From: Pontiella desulfatans
GTDB taxonomy: Bacteria > Verrucomicrobiota > Kiritimatiellia > Kiritimatiellales > Pontiellaceae
Length of the DNA: 64,000 bases
Assembly: GCF_900890425.1 (NCBI RefSeq)
Contig: NZ_CAAHFG010000002.1
Coordinates: 310,001-374,000, forward strand
Direction of reading: 5' to 3'
Shown: one piece after another, positions 5,556 through 62,946 of the stretch
Layout: each line of letters opens with the position of its first letter
How positions within the stretch are numbered: the first letter of the stretch is position 1
Translations under genes and position numbers: made by a program
The notes under the pieces: generated by a model
What the model was told of the DNA's origin: nothing
Database searches by the model: none
Seen by the model: the letters and a program-made list of their open reading frames with translations, nothing else

Positions 5556-5559
5556 GAAA

Positions 5560-5631
5560 GTAGGACAGGCTTCCAGCCTGTCTCCCGCAGGATGGCATTG
5601 CGTATGTAGACAGGCTGGAAGCCTGTCCTAC
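5560..5631. repeat. Large inverted repeat (24-bp perfect arms)
   Basis: Arms 5560-5583 and 5608-5631 are exact reverse complements. Each arm is itself nearly palindromic around CAGGCT..AGCCTG, so the element can fold as one long hairpin or as two short ones. It lies 5 bases after the sulfatase stop and 31 bases before the GH31 start. It may act as a transcript stabiliser or terminator; its form fits a dispersed intergenic repeat. A related element is at 13530-13613. Confidence 0.85.
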
Positions 5632-5662
5632 ATTATATTTGAAGGAATGAAAGGTTGATGAA

Positions 5663-25043: not shown

Positions 25044-25787
25044 ATGGGCCGTGAAAACATCGATAACTGGCGGGTGCAACGATGCGCCAAGGTGTGCACC
25101 CAGTGCGCGAAGGAGTTCGCCGACAAGGAAAACCTCTTTTCCAAACTCATTTTCGATGAGGGCGAATATGTTCGCCATGATCTGTGCAAGCAGTGCTGGG
25201 ATAAGAAAGATCCCGGACTGAGTTCCTGGAAAACCACCTTCATTGTCCCGCCACCTCCGCAGGAGGAAGCGGTGAAGAAAGAGAATGCCGAATCGCTCCT
25301 GCGCAAGCTCATGGCCAAGGAAAACGAAGAAGATCTCAATGCCATCTTCATTCTCACGGTAATGCTCGAACGAAAGAAAATCCTGGTCGAGCGCGATACG
25401 CAAACCACGGAAGACGGTCGCAAGCTCCGCATCTACGAGCACAAGAAAACCAACGAAACCTTCATGGTCATCGATCCCGAGCTCAAGCTCGACGAACTTG
25501 AGGAAGTTCAGGAGCAAGTCGTTGTCCTCCTGGGCGGCCAGCCCCGCAACGCCCCCGAGCCAGCCCCTGCTGAGGATGGAGGGTCGGGTTCCACCCCGAC
25601 TGCCGCAGAAGAGGAGTCCGCGGCAGATGGAGGGTCGGGTTCCGCCCCGACCACCGCTGGAGGGGAAACCCCCGTGGCGGATGAGCTTCCCCTCGAAACG
25701 GATCAGCCCAATCCGACCGATCGGTCGGATTCCCCCAACACTTCCGATGGAGAACAGGAAGAATCCGGGGAAAAGGAACAGGCTTAG
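25044..25787 (+). CDS. Conserved zinc-ribbon protein of unknown function, with repeat-derived tail
   Basis: Protein of 247 residues. The first 55 residues carry four cysteines in two pairs (CTQC, CKQC) plus an extra Cys, suggesting a zinc ribbon. Residues 75-170 are charged and helical (ESLLRKLMAKENEEDLNAIFILTVMLERKKIL), with a conserved look (YEHKKTNETFMVIDPELKL). From about residue 178 on, the tail is low-complexity. Two of its segments (DGGSGSTPT and DGGSGSAPT) are translations of REP-like hairpins at 25578 and 25629. The function is not recognised. Proteins of this kind occur in Planctomycetes and Verrucomicrobia. Confidence 0.7.
   Translation: MGRENIDNWRVQRCAKVCTQCAKEFADKENLFSKLIFDEGEYVRHDLCKQCWDKKDPGLSSWKTTFIVPPPPQEEAVKKENAESLLRKLMAKENEEDLNAIFILTVMLERKKILVERDTQTTEDGRKLRIYEHKKTNETFMVIDPELKLDELEEVQEQVVVLLGGQPRNAPEPAPAEDGGSGSTPTAAEEESAADGGSGSAPTTAGGETPVADELPLETDQPNPTDRSDSPNTSDGEQEESGEKEQA
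25578..25600. repeat. REP-like hairpin, copy 1 (inside a coding frame)
   Basis: GGAGG foot, stem GTCGGG/CCCGAC, loop TTCCAC. It is read in frame by the zinc-ribbon gene. Confidence 0.8.
25629..25651. repeat. REP-like hairpin, copy 2 (inside a coding frame)
   Basis: GGAGG foot, stem GTCGGG/CCCGAC, loop TTCCGC. It is a tandem partner of copy 1, 51 bases downstream in the same frame. A degenerate third unit (GGAGGGGAAACCCCC) follows at about 25658. Confidence 0.8.
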
Positions 25788-28049: not shown

Positions 28050-28073
28050 GCGGGCATCATACCGAAAATGGTT

Positions 28074-28098
28074 GGAGGGGCGAGTTCCTCCTCGCCCG
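28074..28098. repeat. REP-like hairpin, copy 3
   Basis: GGAGG foot, stem GGGCGAG/CTCGCCC, loop TTCCTC-like. It lies just upstream of larE. Confidence 0.8.
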
Positions 28099-28134
28099 AA
28101 TATTGGGTGTTTGATTAGGGCGTTGGGTTGGACT

Positions 28135-28199
28135 GGAGGGGCAAGTTCCACCTTGCCCGGTTCCTCACGTAAGGCGGCCCGGGTGGAACCGGGCCCTCC
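28135..28199. repeat. Pair of inverted REP-like hairpins, copies 4 and 5
   Basis: Copy 4 (28135-28160) has stem GGGCAAG/CTTGCCC and loop TTCCAC. Copy 5 (28173-28199) is in the opposite orientation, with stem GCCCGG/CCGGGC. The head-to-head pair right behind the transposase domain has the layout of a BIME, the usual mobile form of REPs. Confidence 0.8.
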
Positions 28200-28200
28200 A

Positions 28201-30249
28201 TCACGAGGTAAGCCAAATCAGTGAGTGCAGTTCCCCTTGGTATGGCCAATCCTCTGAGGCCTCAACCAATTCTGCTCGAACAGGATTGTTGCGAACATAC
28301 GCCCACTTTTCGGAATAGCTTTCACTTTGACGTAACTGTGTGTCCCAGAAATCGCGTTGAAATACCCTTGAGATGGAGGGGCAAGTTCCACCTTGCCCGG
28401 TGGAGGGGCCGGTTCCACCCGGCCTTTCGTCCGCAATGCTACCGTGCCCCAACTCCGCACGGGAAACCATGGACTTCCAATATTGCACCCACGTCTTCAG
28501 AGAAACATCCCGGGCTGCCGGTGAGCAGAACAGGTGGATGTGATCCGGCATCACCACATATTTCCCAATCCGCCAAGCGTCGGCCTTTTCCCATGCCGCC
28601 AGCAACCGTTCATGCATGGCATCGTTGTTCAGTATCGGTTGCCTGTTTTGGGAGCAGACCGTCACGAGGATGATCGTAGGCGTGTTGAACCGTTCTGTCG
28701 GTGGAAAGTGGGCGGGGTGTTTGCGGTGCGGGCGCGGGGACGGGGTGGAACCCGTCCCTCCAACTATGCGCATCAACCTGTCCATGTCGAGGTGTTGTTC
28801 GAAATGGGTGGCGAGGAGGTCGTATTGGGTTTGTTTGAATTCGGTGGCGGCTTGTGCATCTTCGGCGGCATAGCCCGGATTCAGGCTGCTTAGGTATTGG
28901 TTCCGGAATTCCGGGAAATCGAAAAGGCCGTGGAAATAGCTGCCTGCAATTCTTCCATCGGGCGATACCGCCCCATCGACATCCTTCACGGCCTGCCGGT
29001 TGCGGCTCGAAACGATTACCATGGGGTTGGCATTGGATCCGAGCGTGGTTTTCCCCATGTGGATTTCATAGCCGTCGATGAAGGTTCCATCGGCGAAGCG
29101 CCCTTGCGATCGGGATAGAACCTTGTCTTTCTCCAGCGTGGTTTCAAGATCGAGCAGGTCGAAACCTTCCGAGCTGCCGGGGTCTCCCTCGATGCCGAGC
29201 GGATCGTGCACCTGCTTGCCGAGCATTTGGTAGCCGCCGCAAACGCCGAGGATGTGGCCCTTGAATCCAAGGATGGATTCTTCCCATCCGGTATCCTTTA
29301 GCCATTGGAGGTCGAACCGGACATTCTTGGTGCCGGGAATCATCAGCGCATCGTAGCCCTCAAGGTTCCGCGGTTTCGAAAGGTAGTGGAACGACACCGC
29401 CGCGTTACGGATGAGCGGATTAAAGTCGGTGAAGTTGGAAATGTGCGGCAGGCGCAGGCAGGCGATGTTGATCTTGCCGGGCACGGGACGGACTGGCGGA
29501 TCGATGACGGTTTCCAACGGCATGCCATCTTCGGGGTCGATCTCGATGCCGCGGTAGTAGGGGATCAATCCCAGCACCGGCAGGCCGGTCTGTTCCTCCA
29601 GATAGGCGATGCCGTCGTCGAACAATGAGGCGTCGCCACGGAACTTGTTGATGATGAACCCGGCCACCCTTTGCCGGTCATGCTCAGGCATCACCGCAAG
29701 CGAACCGACGATCTGCGCAAAGACGCCGCCGCGGTCGATGTCGGCGACGAGGATGACGGGGGCGTCGGCGGCATGGGCGGTCTCGAAGTTGACGTAGTCG
29801 CGGTCGCGCAGGTTGACCTCGGCGCAGGATCCGGCGCCTTCGATGACGACCAGGTCGTGTTTGGCTTTCAGCCGTTCGAGCGATTCAAAGGCGGGCTCGC
29901 GGATTTTCGAGGTGTCGCTGAAAAACTCGGAAGCCAATGCGTTGCAGATGGCTTTGCCCTGCAGGACAACCTGCGAGCCGATATCGGTGTTGGGTTTTAG
30001 CAACACGGGATTCATGTCGGTGTGCGGTTCGATGCCACAGGCCTCCGCCTGTACCACCTGCGCGCGCCCCATCTCGCCGCCTTCGAGGGTGACATAGGAA
30101 TTGTTCGACATGTTTTGCGCCTTGTAGGGCGCAACGGACCATCCGCGGTTCTTGAAGATGCGTCCGATGGCCGTCACCACGATGCTCTTCCCCACATCGG
30201 AGCCCGTTCCGAGAAAGGCGATGCACTTGGCTGGACGGGTTTGTTTCAT
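28201..30249 (-). CDS. cobQ: Cobyric acid synthase fused in frame to a REP-associated tyrosine transposase
   Basis: 682 residues in two parts. Residues 1-496 are a complete CobQ/CbiP glutamine amidotransferase that amidates adenosyl-cobyrinic acid: P-loop-like GTGSDVGKS, AQNMSNNSYVT, EGAGSCAEVNLRDRD, GATase Cys337 in GVCGGYQ and His440 in SYFHGLF. Residues 497-505 are read from a REP-like hairpin. Residues 506-682 are a full-length Y1/HUH transposase of the RAYT class (PHRKHPAHF, HUH motif PDHIHLF at 568-574, RDFWDTQLRQSESY, YVRNNPVRAELV with the likely catalytic Tyr651). Two further hairpins interrupt the transposase part (residues about 608-626). No stop or frameshift separates the parts. 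Upstream neighbours are B12 uptake genes. Confidence 0.88.
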   Translation of the reverse strand: MKQTRPAKCIAFLGTGSDVGKSIVVTAIGRIFKNRGWSVAPYKAQNMSNNSYVTLEGGEMGRAQVVQAEACGIEPHTDMNPVLLKPNTDIGSQVVLQGKAICNALASEFFSDTSKIREPAFESLERLKAKHDLVVIEGAGSCAEVNLRDRDYVNFETAHAADAPVILVADIDRGGVFAQIVGSLAVMPEHDRQRVAGFIINKFRGDASLFDDGIAYLEEQTGLPVLGLIPYYRGIEIDPEDGMPLETVIDPPVRPVPGKINIACLRLPHISNFTDFNPLIRNAAVSFHYLSKPRNLEGYDALMIPGTKNVRFDLQWLKDTGWEESILGFKGHILGVCGGYQMLGKQVHDPLGIEGDPGSSEGFDLLDLETTLEKDKVLSRSQGRFADGTFIDGYEIHMGKTTLGSNANPMVIVSSRNRQAVKDVDGAVSPDGRIAGSYFHGLFDFPEFRNQYLSSLNPGYAAEDAQAATEFKQTQYDLLATHFEQHLDMDRLMRIVGGTGSTPSPRPHRKHPAHFPPTERFNTPTIILVTVCSQNRQPILNNDAMHERLLAAWEKADAWRIGKYVVMPDHIHLFCSPAARDVSLKTWVQYWKSMVSRAELGHGSIADERPGGTGPSTGQGGTCPSISRVFQRDFWDTQLRQSESYSEKWAYVRNNPVRAELVEASEDWPYQGELHSLIWLTS
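28375..28424. repeat. Tandem REP-like hairpins, copies 6 and 7, inside the transposase domain
   Basis: Copy 6 (28375-28400) repeats the stem GGGCAAG/CTTGCCC. Copy 7 (28402-28424) has stem GGCCGG/CCGGCC; both have loop TTCCAC. Related transposases go directly from the KSMVSR region to the QRDFWDTQ block, so this stretch appears to be an in-frame insertion. Confidence 0.8.
28737..28761. repeat. REP-like hairpin, copy 8, at the cobQ/transposase junction
   Basis: Minus-strand orientation: GGAGG foot, stem GACGGG/CCCGTC, loop TTCCAC. It occupies exactly the place where the CobQ homology ends and the transposase homology begins. Confidence 0.85.
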
Positions 30250-30268: not shown

Positions 30269-30342
30269 AACCGCGAAAGAACGCAAGGAACGCAAAGAAT
30301 GTGCTGTCTGGGATTTTGCGTTCCTTGCGTTCTTTCGCGGTT
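30269..30342. repeat. Inverted repeat with perfect 28-bp arms
   Basis: Arms 30269-30296 and 30315-30342 are exact reverse complements with an 18-base loop. They contain CGCGAAAGAACGCAAGG, a dispersed repeat theme seen in other genomes. It lies between btuC and cobQ, 20 bases before the cobQ start, and could separate the two messages. Confidence 0.85.
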
Positions 30343-39523: not shown

Positions 39524-39561
39524 CGGACGGAAAAAGTGACGGCCGTCACTTTTTCCGTCCG
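39524..39561. repeat. 38-nt perfect palindrome, left copy
   Basis: It is perfectly self-complementary, with core GTGACGGCCGTCAC flanked by A5/T5 and GGACGG/CCGTCC. It begins 23 bases after the secreted-protein stop and ends 1 base from the stop codon of the PaaX-like gene. Confidence 0.9.
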
Positions 39562-39562
39562 G

Positions 39563-40417
39563 CTAGTGGGGTTCGATCTGCTCTGCGATTCTTTTGCCAA
39601 GGGCTTGGTGCCGGGCAAATACCTGTTTGCCGGTGTAGCTTTCCGGGAGCAGTTCGTTGGGCAGGAGTGGATCATTGGTCATGGCTTGCGAATAAGCCAG
39701 GTTGTCCATGCGTAGCAGTTGCATCAGTTCCGCCGGCGAAAACCGGTTGCCTTCCAGCAGGCTTAGGTTTTTTTCGGCGTAGGCCAGATAGTGGTTCTGG
39801 ATTTCCTGCAGGGCGTCGAAATCCCAGGCTTCCAATACGACCGATTGGTTTCCGTGGCCCAGTACGGTTTTGGATTCGAATAGATGGGCAATGCTGTCGA
39901 CTGCGGCTGCATGGTCAAGGTCGTCGTATTCCGGACGAATATCGCGCGGTGTGATCCAAACGCTTTGCTGGAGGCATCCCATGCGCAGCGTCTTCAGAAA
40001 GGCCCGCAGTTTGTTGCGATAGTCCCGATCCTTTTCCGGAATGTCGAATACGAGCACATACCACCAATGGTTCCACGGTTTAGACCACAACTTGTCCGGC
40101 TTGTAATAGGCCGGCAGGCGGGCCTCCCCTTCGGGGGTCAGCTCCAGCCCCGGCATCGTTCCGTCGGTGTGGGGCGTAACGACAAGCCCTTGTTTGCGCA
40201 AGCGGGCTATCGATTTCCGGAATGCTTCTTGGTTTGGATAGCAGTGTCCGTAGAAGTCGCTGGCCCCCTTGCTCAGGATCATGGCTCCTGTGTCTTTCAG
40301 CAGCGTGGCAAGTTCCTGCCCGACTTTGCGGCGGACGACAGGCAATGAGAGGTCGGGGTGGTGGAAGGGTTCCCATTTCATTGGGCGAAGATAAACGATT
40401 TCCACCATCGAGGTCAC
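39563..40417 (-). CDS. PaaX-family transcriptional regulator
   Basis: Protein of up to 284 residues. The N-terminal winged helix (about 25-95, ILSKGASDFYGHCYPNQEAFRKSIARLRKQGLV) is followed by the PaaX central Cas2-like domain (WWYVLVFDIPEKDRDYRNKLRAFLKTLRMGCLQQSVWITP) and a helical C-terminal domain with the family end (DPLLPNELLPESYTGKQVFARHQAL). PaaX represses phenylacetate genes in proteobacteria; no such genes are nearby. The start is uncertain: GTG 40417, ATG 40408 or ATG 40381, none with a clear Shine-Dalgarno. The gene is bracketed by two near-identical palindromes. Confidence 0.82.
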   Translation of the reverse strand: MTSMVEIVYLRPMKWEPFHHPDLSLPVVRRKVGQELATLLKDTGAMILSKGASDFYGHCYPNQEAFRKSIARLRKQGLVVTPHTDGTMPGLELTPEGEARLPAYYKPDKLWSKPWNHWWYVLVFDIPEKDRDYRNKLRAFLKTLRMGCLQQSVWITPRDIRPEYDDLDHAAAVDSIAHLFESKTVLGHGNQSVVLEAWDFDALQEIQNHYLAYAEKNLSLLEGNRFSPAELMQLLRMDNLAYSQAMTNDPLLPNELLPESYTGKQVFARHQALGKRIAEQIEPH

Positions 40418-40424
40418 GGATGAA

Positions 40425-40462
40425 CGGACGGAAAAACTGACGGCCGTCAGTTTTTCCGTCCG
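40425..40462. repeat. 38-nt perfect palindrome, right copy
   Basis: Same as the left copy except that the core is CTGACGGCCGTCAG: one base pair is exchanged (G:C to C:G) and symmetry is kept. It lies 7 bases upstream of the earliest start of the PaaX-like gene and in the divergent spacer before the lacI-type gene. Confidence 0.9.
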
Positions 40463-56485: not shown

Positions 56486-57027
56486 TTGCGGGAAAACCGA
56501 TTCTGACTACTATCCGTCCCCCTGTTCACAACACGTCAGCCGCTAATGAGGCCATACGGTGAATGGAAACTGTTCTTTTTCAATAGCTGAATGTTTCGGG
56601 ATTCTCCGGGTTGTTAAACCGGTTCCCCATTGCGCAAAACGAGCTGCTAGCCGTTCATGCAAAGTGGTGGAATTCCTCTTAAGAGAGGCGCAGTGTTTAT
56701 CCCTTTTCAGGGGGTTGAAAATAATTTGATTTTCGGGTTGATCGAAAAGTTTCGATCGCTACTATAGCCCGCCTTGTTCAAAACAAACCGGTCGTTGAAA
56801 CACACGGCGCAGGTCGAACAGGGAGCCGCCTCCGGGCGCTAATTTGATCTTTGATACATGAAATAAAAAGTTGAACTTTCGGGTTGCGCGATTCATCTGA
56901 ATCCCTACTATGACCCGCCTGCTCAAAACAAACCAAAGCACTCCGGTGCGAAGGTGGTGTTGAGCGGATGTTCTTGAAAAACTTTTTTTACAAAAGCGGT
57001 TGACTCGTCCGGCTAGTCTGGTAGGTT
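56486..57027 (+). promoter_or_regulatory. Four tandem rRNA promoters
   Basis: Four -35/-10 pairs all with a 16-base spacer: TTGCGG/TACTAT (56486/56508), TTGATC/TACTAT (56738/56760), TTGCGC/TACTAT (56884/56906), TTGACT/TAGGTT (57000/57022). Each -10 is followed by a GC-rich discriminator (CCGTCC, GCCCGCC, ACCCGCC, GTCCGCC), as expected for stringent control. P2 and P3 also share the downstream sequence TCAAAACAAACC. Confidence 0.85.
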
Positions 57028-57083
57028 GTCCGCCGCTTCAACGGGAAAGACGCTCTCGCAGCGCCGATAAGTTGAAGCCTTTT

Positions 57084-57285
57084 TGTTCTTTGAAATCAGA
57101 ATAACTCATAAGATATGACAGAAATGAAGCATCGCTTCGAATCAGAAGTGGTGCGGTTTGTTATAGCCAATGCTTTGAAACTTATCGATCGCCTGACCCT
57201 GCCTGGCAGGGGACGGAAGATTGAGTTTTAAATTGCGAATTATATATAAGTACAGGGTCTGAACCTGATCGATTTTGAAAGAAAT
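57084..57285 (+). other. 16S leader with boxA and processing stem
   Basis: TGTTCTTTGAAA at 57084-57095 is a boxA antitermination element. Bases about 57103-57160 pair with 58951-59000 behind the 16S gene (CAAACCGCACCA is conserved in the downstream arm), giving the RNase III stem. A CCCTGCC/GGCAGGG hairpin follows at about 57196. Confidence 0.8.
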
Positions 57286-62487: not shown

Positions 62488-62660
62488 TTTTTATTTTTCT
62501 TCCACCATGGAAGAGCCATGCCACTCCAGTTCGCTGGAGCACGGGATCAGGCGGCCTGCGGGCTGCGGTTCACCATCCTCACAATACTATGCGAGTCCGT
62601 TAGTAGCGGGCCATATGAATGAGGCTTGTTCTTTTATAAAACTTTTTTTACAAAAATCGG
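62488..62660. other. Spacer between the two rRNA operons
   Basis: It holds a hairpin CTCCAG-TTCG-CTGGAG (62525-62540) and a fragment AATACTATGCGAG resembling the 23S processing arm. From about 62640 the sequence becomes a direct repeat of 56979 onward (offset 5,661). Confidence 0.6.
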
Positions 62661-62946
62661 TTGACTCGTCCGGCTAGTCTGGTAGGTTGTCCGCCGCTTC
62701 AACGGGAAAGACGCTCTCGCAGCGCCGATAAGTTGAAGCCTTTTTGTTCTTTGAAATCAGAATAACTCATAAGATATGACAGAAATGAAGCATCGCTTCG
62801 AATCAGAAGTGGTGCGGTTTGTTATAGCCAATGCTTTGAAACTTATCGATCGCCTGACCCTGCCTGGCAGGGGACGGAAGATTGAGTTTTAAATTGCGAA
62901 TTATATATAAGTACAGGGTCTGAACCTGATCGATTTTGAAAGAAAT
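62661..62946 (+). promoter_or_regulatory. Promoter and leader of the second rRNA operon
   Basis: TTGACT (62661) and TAGGTT (62683) repeat P4 of the first operon, as do boxA (62745-62756) and the processing stem. Upstream promoters P1-P3 are absent here. Confidence 0.85.

Follow-up and report, generated by a model that had tools for sequence, protein, structure and literature searches.

At positions 39524-40462 of the window, by which we mean the whole 64,000-nucleotide stretch of Pontiella desulfatans DNA that was analysed, a PaaX-like gene lies between two palindromes:

39524..39561, no strand: left (downstream) palindrome, CGGACGGAAAAAGTGACGGCCGTCACTTTTTCCGTCCG, G-type, with three solo copies elsewhere in the genome alike
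39563..40381, minus strand: PaaX-like gene (predicted winged helix, Cas2-like PaaX_M, PaaX_C), ATG start by homology, frame open to GTG 40417
40425..40462, no strand: right (upstream) palindrome, CGGACGGAAAAACTGACGGCCGTCAGTTTTTCCGTCCG, C-type, with four solo copies alike
39524..40462, no strand: entire palindrome-gene-palindrome unit, missing from the lacI-glycerate kinase locus of relatives; layout common to most homologues

The initial annotation had described two perfect 38-bp palindromes that differ by a single compensated base pair, and both are present (39524-39561 and 40425-40462), the sole change being at positions 13/26, where G-C and C-G are exchanged symmetrically. It was confirmed that the minus-strand gene has its stop codon 1 base from the left copy. 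For the right copy, the distance of 7 bases given to the start holds for GTG 40417 (284 codons) but not for ATG 40381 (about 272 codons, 43 bases away), at which the start was placed because homologues begin with M-x-W-x-x-F-H-H-P-D.

A search of the 8.66-Mb genome with up to 3 mismatches returned 12 copies of the palindrome, two bracketing the gene and 10 solo, 11 of them exact outside the variable pair; the same 12 were recovered when the arms alone were searched and the centre was left free. The reversed control pattern gave 0 matches in the genome at the same threshold and no isolated half-sites were found there, half-sites occurring only inside full palindromes; a chance origin is therefore excluded, and uptake-sequence-like half-sites were rejected for want of free half-sites. 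Among 39 relatives, 24 of the same genus, the window palindrome had 0 copies. A cassette tied to this exact palindrome was rejected as well, since 10 of the 12 copies stand alone, away from the gene, and a known RNA element was dismissed, the palindrome having only sub-threshold matches to microRNA hairpins. Sequence variation among the 12 copies is confined almost wholly to the symmetric pair, which is G-C in four and C-G in five, while the three remaining copies are quasi-palindromes with mismatched intermediates (G/G twice, T/G once); the compensated pair thus coexists with its intermediates. Such a pattern would be expected from selection for symmetry or if a quasi-palindrome were corrected by template switching.

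The annotation of the protein as PaaX-like with a Cas2-like domain was borne out by Pfam (Cas2-like PaaX_M, 6.7e-23; PaaX_C, 4.7e-5). Although it shares these two domains with PaaX repressors, the window protein scored 49.7 bits against the NCBIfam PaaX equivalog TIGR02277, far below the cut-off of 264.55, and 20.3 bits against the Cas2 model TIGR01573 (cut-off 24.5). Most short family members are matched by Cas2 models, and one (L023, described below) reached 33 bits with TIGR01573, above the NCBIfam cut-off of 24.5. A search for the HUH/Y1 transposase domain gave no PF01797 match, the families matched being PaaX_M, PaaX_C, Cas2 and winged-helix. As in Cas2 and VapD, a Cas2 core motif with Asp and Q-x-S is present, and in all short members aligned the Asp, Arg and Q-x-S of this core are invariant; unlike Cas2 and VapD, the family has an extra N-terminal DNA-binding-like region. 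Cas2-fold proteins are sometimes non-catalytic. Structure prediction from a 3-row alignment reached a pLDDT of 38, and the putative active site is therefore argued from motifs alone.

Resident genes and private palindromes in two phyla

With the window gene counted, the genome has nine or more members of the gene family. On inspection, nearly all homologues from the genus, order and class have palindromes of their own on both sides. These are about 34-54 bp long and mostly lie no more than 60 bp from the start or stop; the arms are unrelated between lineages and a centre of CGATCG or CGGCCG recurs. To quantify flank similarity, 150 bp upstream were compared with 150 bp downstream in both orientations, with 40 dinucleotide shuffles per locus. 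Similarity exceeded all 40 shuffles at 37 of 41 loci of the same class, at 19 of 33 Patescibacteria loci, and at 0 of 11 PF20803 matches in Gammaproteobacteria, a comparison set made up of five PaaX-type proteins and six Cas2-sized or weak matches. One of the four failures in the class, L081, does carry the repeat, displaced by an insertion. The family thus differs from PaaX repressors in that the Gammaproteobacteria homologues tested are without palindrome pairs, and its short members are without the C-terminal domain. A tree of 67 proteins shows strong clustering of the flanked state (10 changes against a shuffled mean of 18.0, 0/500) and sets the PaaX-type proteins apart in an unflanked clade, the labels deriving partly from the same visual inspection of loci. 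PF20803 matches occur in 79 of 239 genomes of the Patescibacteria group, with up to 11 in less than 1 Mb; forms of about 180 aa tend to be flanked, whereas readable forms of 236-257 aa are unflanked.

When genomes totalling 257 Gb were scanned for the core AAAAANTGACGGCCGTCANTTTTT without regard to protein, five matches were obtained. Two of these (L023; L024, from Staskawiczbacteria) are palindromes that bracket a PaaX_M gene of 170-186 aa without C-terminal domain, that is, a wHTH plus Cas2-like gene in other bacteria. A solo palindrome from Doudnabacteria (L026) comes from a genome in which further genes are bracketed (L137, L138) and solos belonging to those families occur, and a perfect solo palindrome of 48 bp in a genome of Bacteroidia (L027, G419) is accompanied by three more (L145-L147), all perfect, 32-50 bp long and with core TGACGGCCGTCA. 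The match in Superficieibacter (L025) was counted as chance. The check proposed initially, a search of other genomes for PaaX-like genes flanked by the palindrome, thus shows a link to the gene family with its private palindromes and not to this palindrome alone; the idea of a one-gene cassette whose protein recognises its palindromic ends is well supported by the homologues in two phyla.

Across the genus, many of the homologues occupy syntenic positions as orthologues, and their flanks can be aligned (about 70-82% over 3.6 kb); the idea that all are mobile copies was rejected on this ground. At orthologous loci the palindromes differ between genomes and both copies of one locus change together, while the protein is under purifying selection (dN 0.03-0.26 against dS 0.35-2.6; dN/dS about 0.06-0.17), so that the gene has persisted vertically with concerted change of its repeats. 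RAYT genes likewise keep their locus while their REPs change yet stay palindromic (PMC2817692).

Some units appear to have moved: between the unit of the window and that of the nearest paralogue the gene alone is shared and not the flanks, and the L079 gene is 81-85% identical to L080 and L081 with unrelated flanks and no clear target duplication, intergenic comparisons at 70-80% identity being too divergent to resolve target duplications. The lacI-glycerate kinase locus of relatives is without the unit (in G021 exbB and lacI are 64 bp apart), the difference from the window locus being a larger rearrangement; of the empty site sought for the whole cassette, this absence from the locus is what was found. 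At the loci compared, no event was seen in which the gene had transposed, leaving clean ends and a target duplication, which counts against the repeat dispersal considered below. An origin in phages or plasmids was rejected, phage records holding no matches to the gene and plasmids only distant actinobacterial PaaX matches; a distant relative on a viral contig (L238) is without palindromes. Remoter PaaX-like genes of the phylum (L093, L094, L096) have palindromes with another core, GTCTCAGCTGAGAC, on both sides in L093.

Solo palindromes and empty sites among relatives

Many more solo palindromes, belonging to other families, are present in the genome (111 pattern matches against 30 in the control). 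Of 19 solos examined in four genomes, 16 resembled the flank of a resident element more closely than any element of 14 other genomes. A 19.9-kb part of the genome holding three solos was set against seven relatives. The first solo, of the window type and intergenic, is absent from the aligned region in four relatives. The second (L199:8160-8209; G000:C1:3783159-3783208) lies in frame within mfd, the gene for transcription-repair coupling factor. At the same codon position palindromes were found in G000, G016, G008 and G021, each of the genome's own resident type, that of G008 being 38/38 identical to the L029 flank, while G042, G024, G001 and G018 have an empty site, with the short form LVQLLSEKQRFIIITCPQ or an equivalent. 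The search for empty sites proposed in the initial annotation was thus successful for solo palindromes. The palindrome-filled genomes do not form a single clade on the mfd tree, which leaves room for repeated insertion, for loss and for replacement; the G016 palindrome, being of another core type, calls for an independent insertion or replacement at least once. In three regions of C1 of G000 (3297164-3309351, 3775886-3794478 and 180515-181814) solos of different families are clustered, as if these regions collect palindromes.

Many solos are intergenic and upstream of genes, as would be expected if the proteins were autoregulating transcription factors, the palindromes their long operators (and hairpin terminators) and the solos their regulon. 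The position of the upstream copy just 5' of the gene agrees with this, and so does the fact that PaaX is a repressor and that the best solved structures among the relatives are transcriptional repressors or regulators, an observation that also counts against repeat dispersal. We nonetheless consider autoregulation unlikely as the explanation: in most loci a matched second copy directly follows the stop codon, relatives are without solos at orthologous intergenic sites, the in-frame mfd copy is a different palindrome in each genome, and the sites are long (36-52 bp), all or none. The operators suggested initially are hence compatible with the upstream copy but leave the downstream copy, the dispersed copies and the mfd insertion unexplained. 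Regulation is possible as a second role of the protein, and binding just 5' of its own gene would probably regulate that gene anyway.

Flanking copies are direct more often than inverted (21:6 among loci where orientation is decidable), and in several loci they are asymmetric, with identical direct pairs of 38 bp in L109 and 39 bp in L190. Such pairs could be the att-like direct repeats of a single-gene integrating element that enters a palindromic site, solos then being empty or vacated sites. We judge this quite improbable, given that solos stand to genes as 10:1 in the window's family, that each orthologous unit has kept its locus throughout the genus, and that the mfd sites would require insertion and perfect excision in an important gene.

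A candidate system for repeat dispersal

The association of repeat and gene in two phyla, their private pairing and the lineage-specific solos with empty sites are best accommodated, in our opinion, by a REPtron-like repeat-dispersal system in which the unit supplies the resident gene, and which consists of a PaaX/Cas2-like DNA-binding protein, a private symmetric repeat and dispersed solos, a reading that we consider on the whole probable. Most likely a dimer or tetramer of the protein would read the repeat; its winged helices would touch the outer arms, which evolve fast, and recognition at the centre would concern the conserved core CGRYCG. The Cas2-like domain, with its invariant Asp and Q-x-S, might then cut or remodel DNA at the repeat, and copies would now and then be placed at new sites, mostly intergenic and sometimes in frame within genes. 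Several repeats have palindromic arms and core with non-palindromic linkers, so that double-stranded symmetric recognition fits better than a hairpin. We infer that the protein binds as a symmetric oligomer and that it, rather than another enzyme, performs the dispersal; cleavage by the Cas2-like domain is suggested less strongly by its motifs. Counting against dispersal are the low number of copies per repeat family (about 2-12, against tens to hundreds for REPs) and the existence of homologues without repeats (L046, L087 and several in Patescibacteria).

The likeness to RAYT/REP systems (REPtrons; TnpA-REP) lies in a gene between two palindromic repeats with matching repeats dispersed in the genome. 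In contrast to these systems, the protein is PaaX/Cas2-like and not a Pfam01797 HUH transposase, the repeats are symmetric with no shared GTAG-type tag beside the 12 copies, flanking copies are often direct, copy number is low, and the units are found in Patescibacteria and the window's class. Rickettsia palindromic elements also place palindromic DNA in frame within protein-coding genes and are longer than the repeats described here; no dedicated gene is known for them, whereas each repeat of the present system goes with a resident gene. Quasi-palindromic repeats around an insert recall CRISPR repeats, but no Cas1 or CRISPR array was noticed at the loci inspected. It is conceivable, although we would rather doubt it, that in bacteria of at least two distant phyla a palindromic repeat is recognised and multiplied by its own stand-alone nuclease of winged-helix/Cas2-like type, possibly inserting with repeat duplication, and that such units could be kin of the precursors of CRISPR repeats and Cas2.

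To our knowledge, REP dissemination has so far been tied to one enzyme family. If dispersal by the PaaX/Cas2-like protein is correct, a second, unrelated protein would have the same repeat biology, and resident-gene-plus-repeat systems would have evolved more than once; a function would be suggested for many Patescibacteria proteins annotated as PaaX regulators or orphan Cas2, and there would be a testable lead on the origin of Cas2 and its repeat partners. The resident genes and their private palindromes also constitute a natural set of matched protein-DNA specificities. No description linking PaaX or orphan Cas2 to palindromes, REP or transposition was found in the open-access literature, preprints lying outside the scope of the search, which points to a kind of system that appears undescribed.

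An inverted, GTAG-type REP-like pair at 5557-5634 of the window (AAAGTAGGACAGGCTTCCAGCCTGTCT) suggests a second, ordinary REP system in this genome. A RAYT may accordingly exist there, and the palindromes could be passive repeats moved by such an unrelated enzyme with the PaaX-like gene as a bystander. This appears very unlikely, since in many lineages, Patescibacteria included, each repeat matches its own resident gene, and since the GTAG tag is absent beside these palindromes. The window holds further repeats: several copies of hairpin repeats of the form TGGAGGGGCAAGTTCCACCTTGCCC at 25575-25666 and 28073-28439, a perfect 28-bp inverted repeat with an 18-nt loop at 30269-30342 (AACCGCGAAAGAACGCAAGGAACGCAAA), and a 300-nt direct repeat, 98% identical, at 56977-57276 and 62638-62937.
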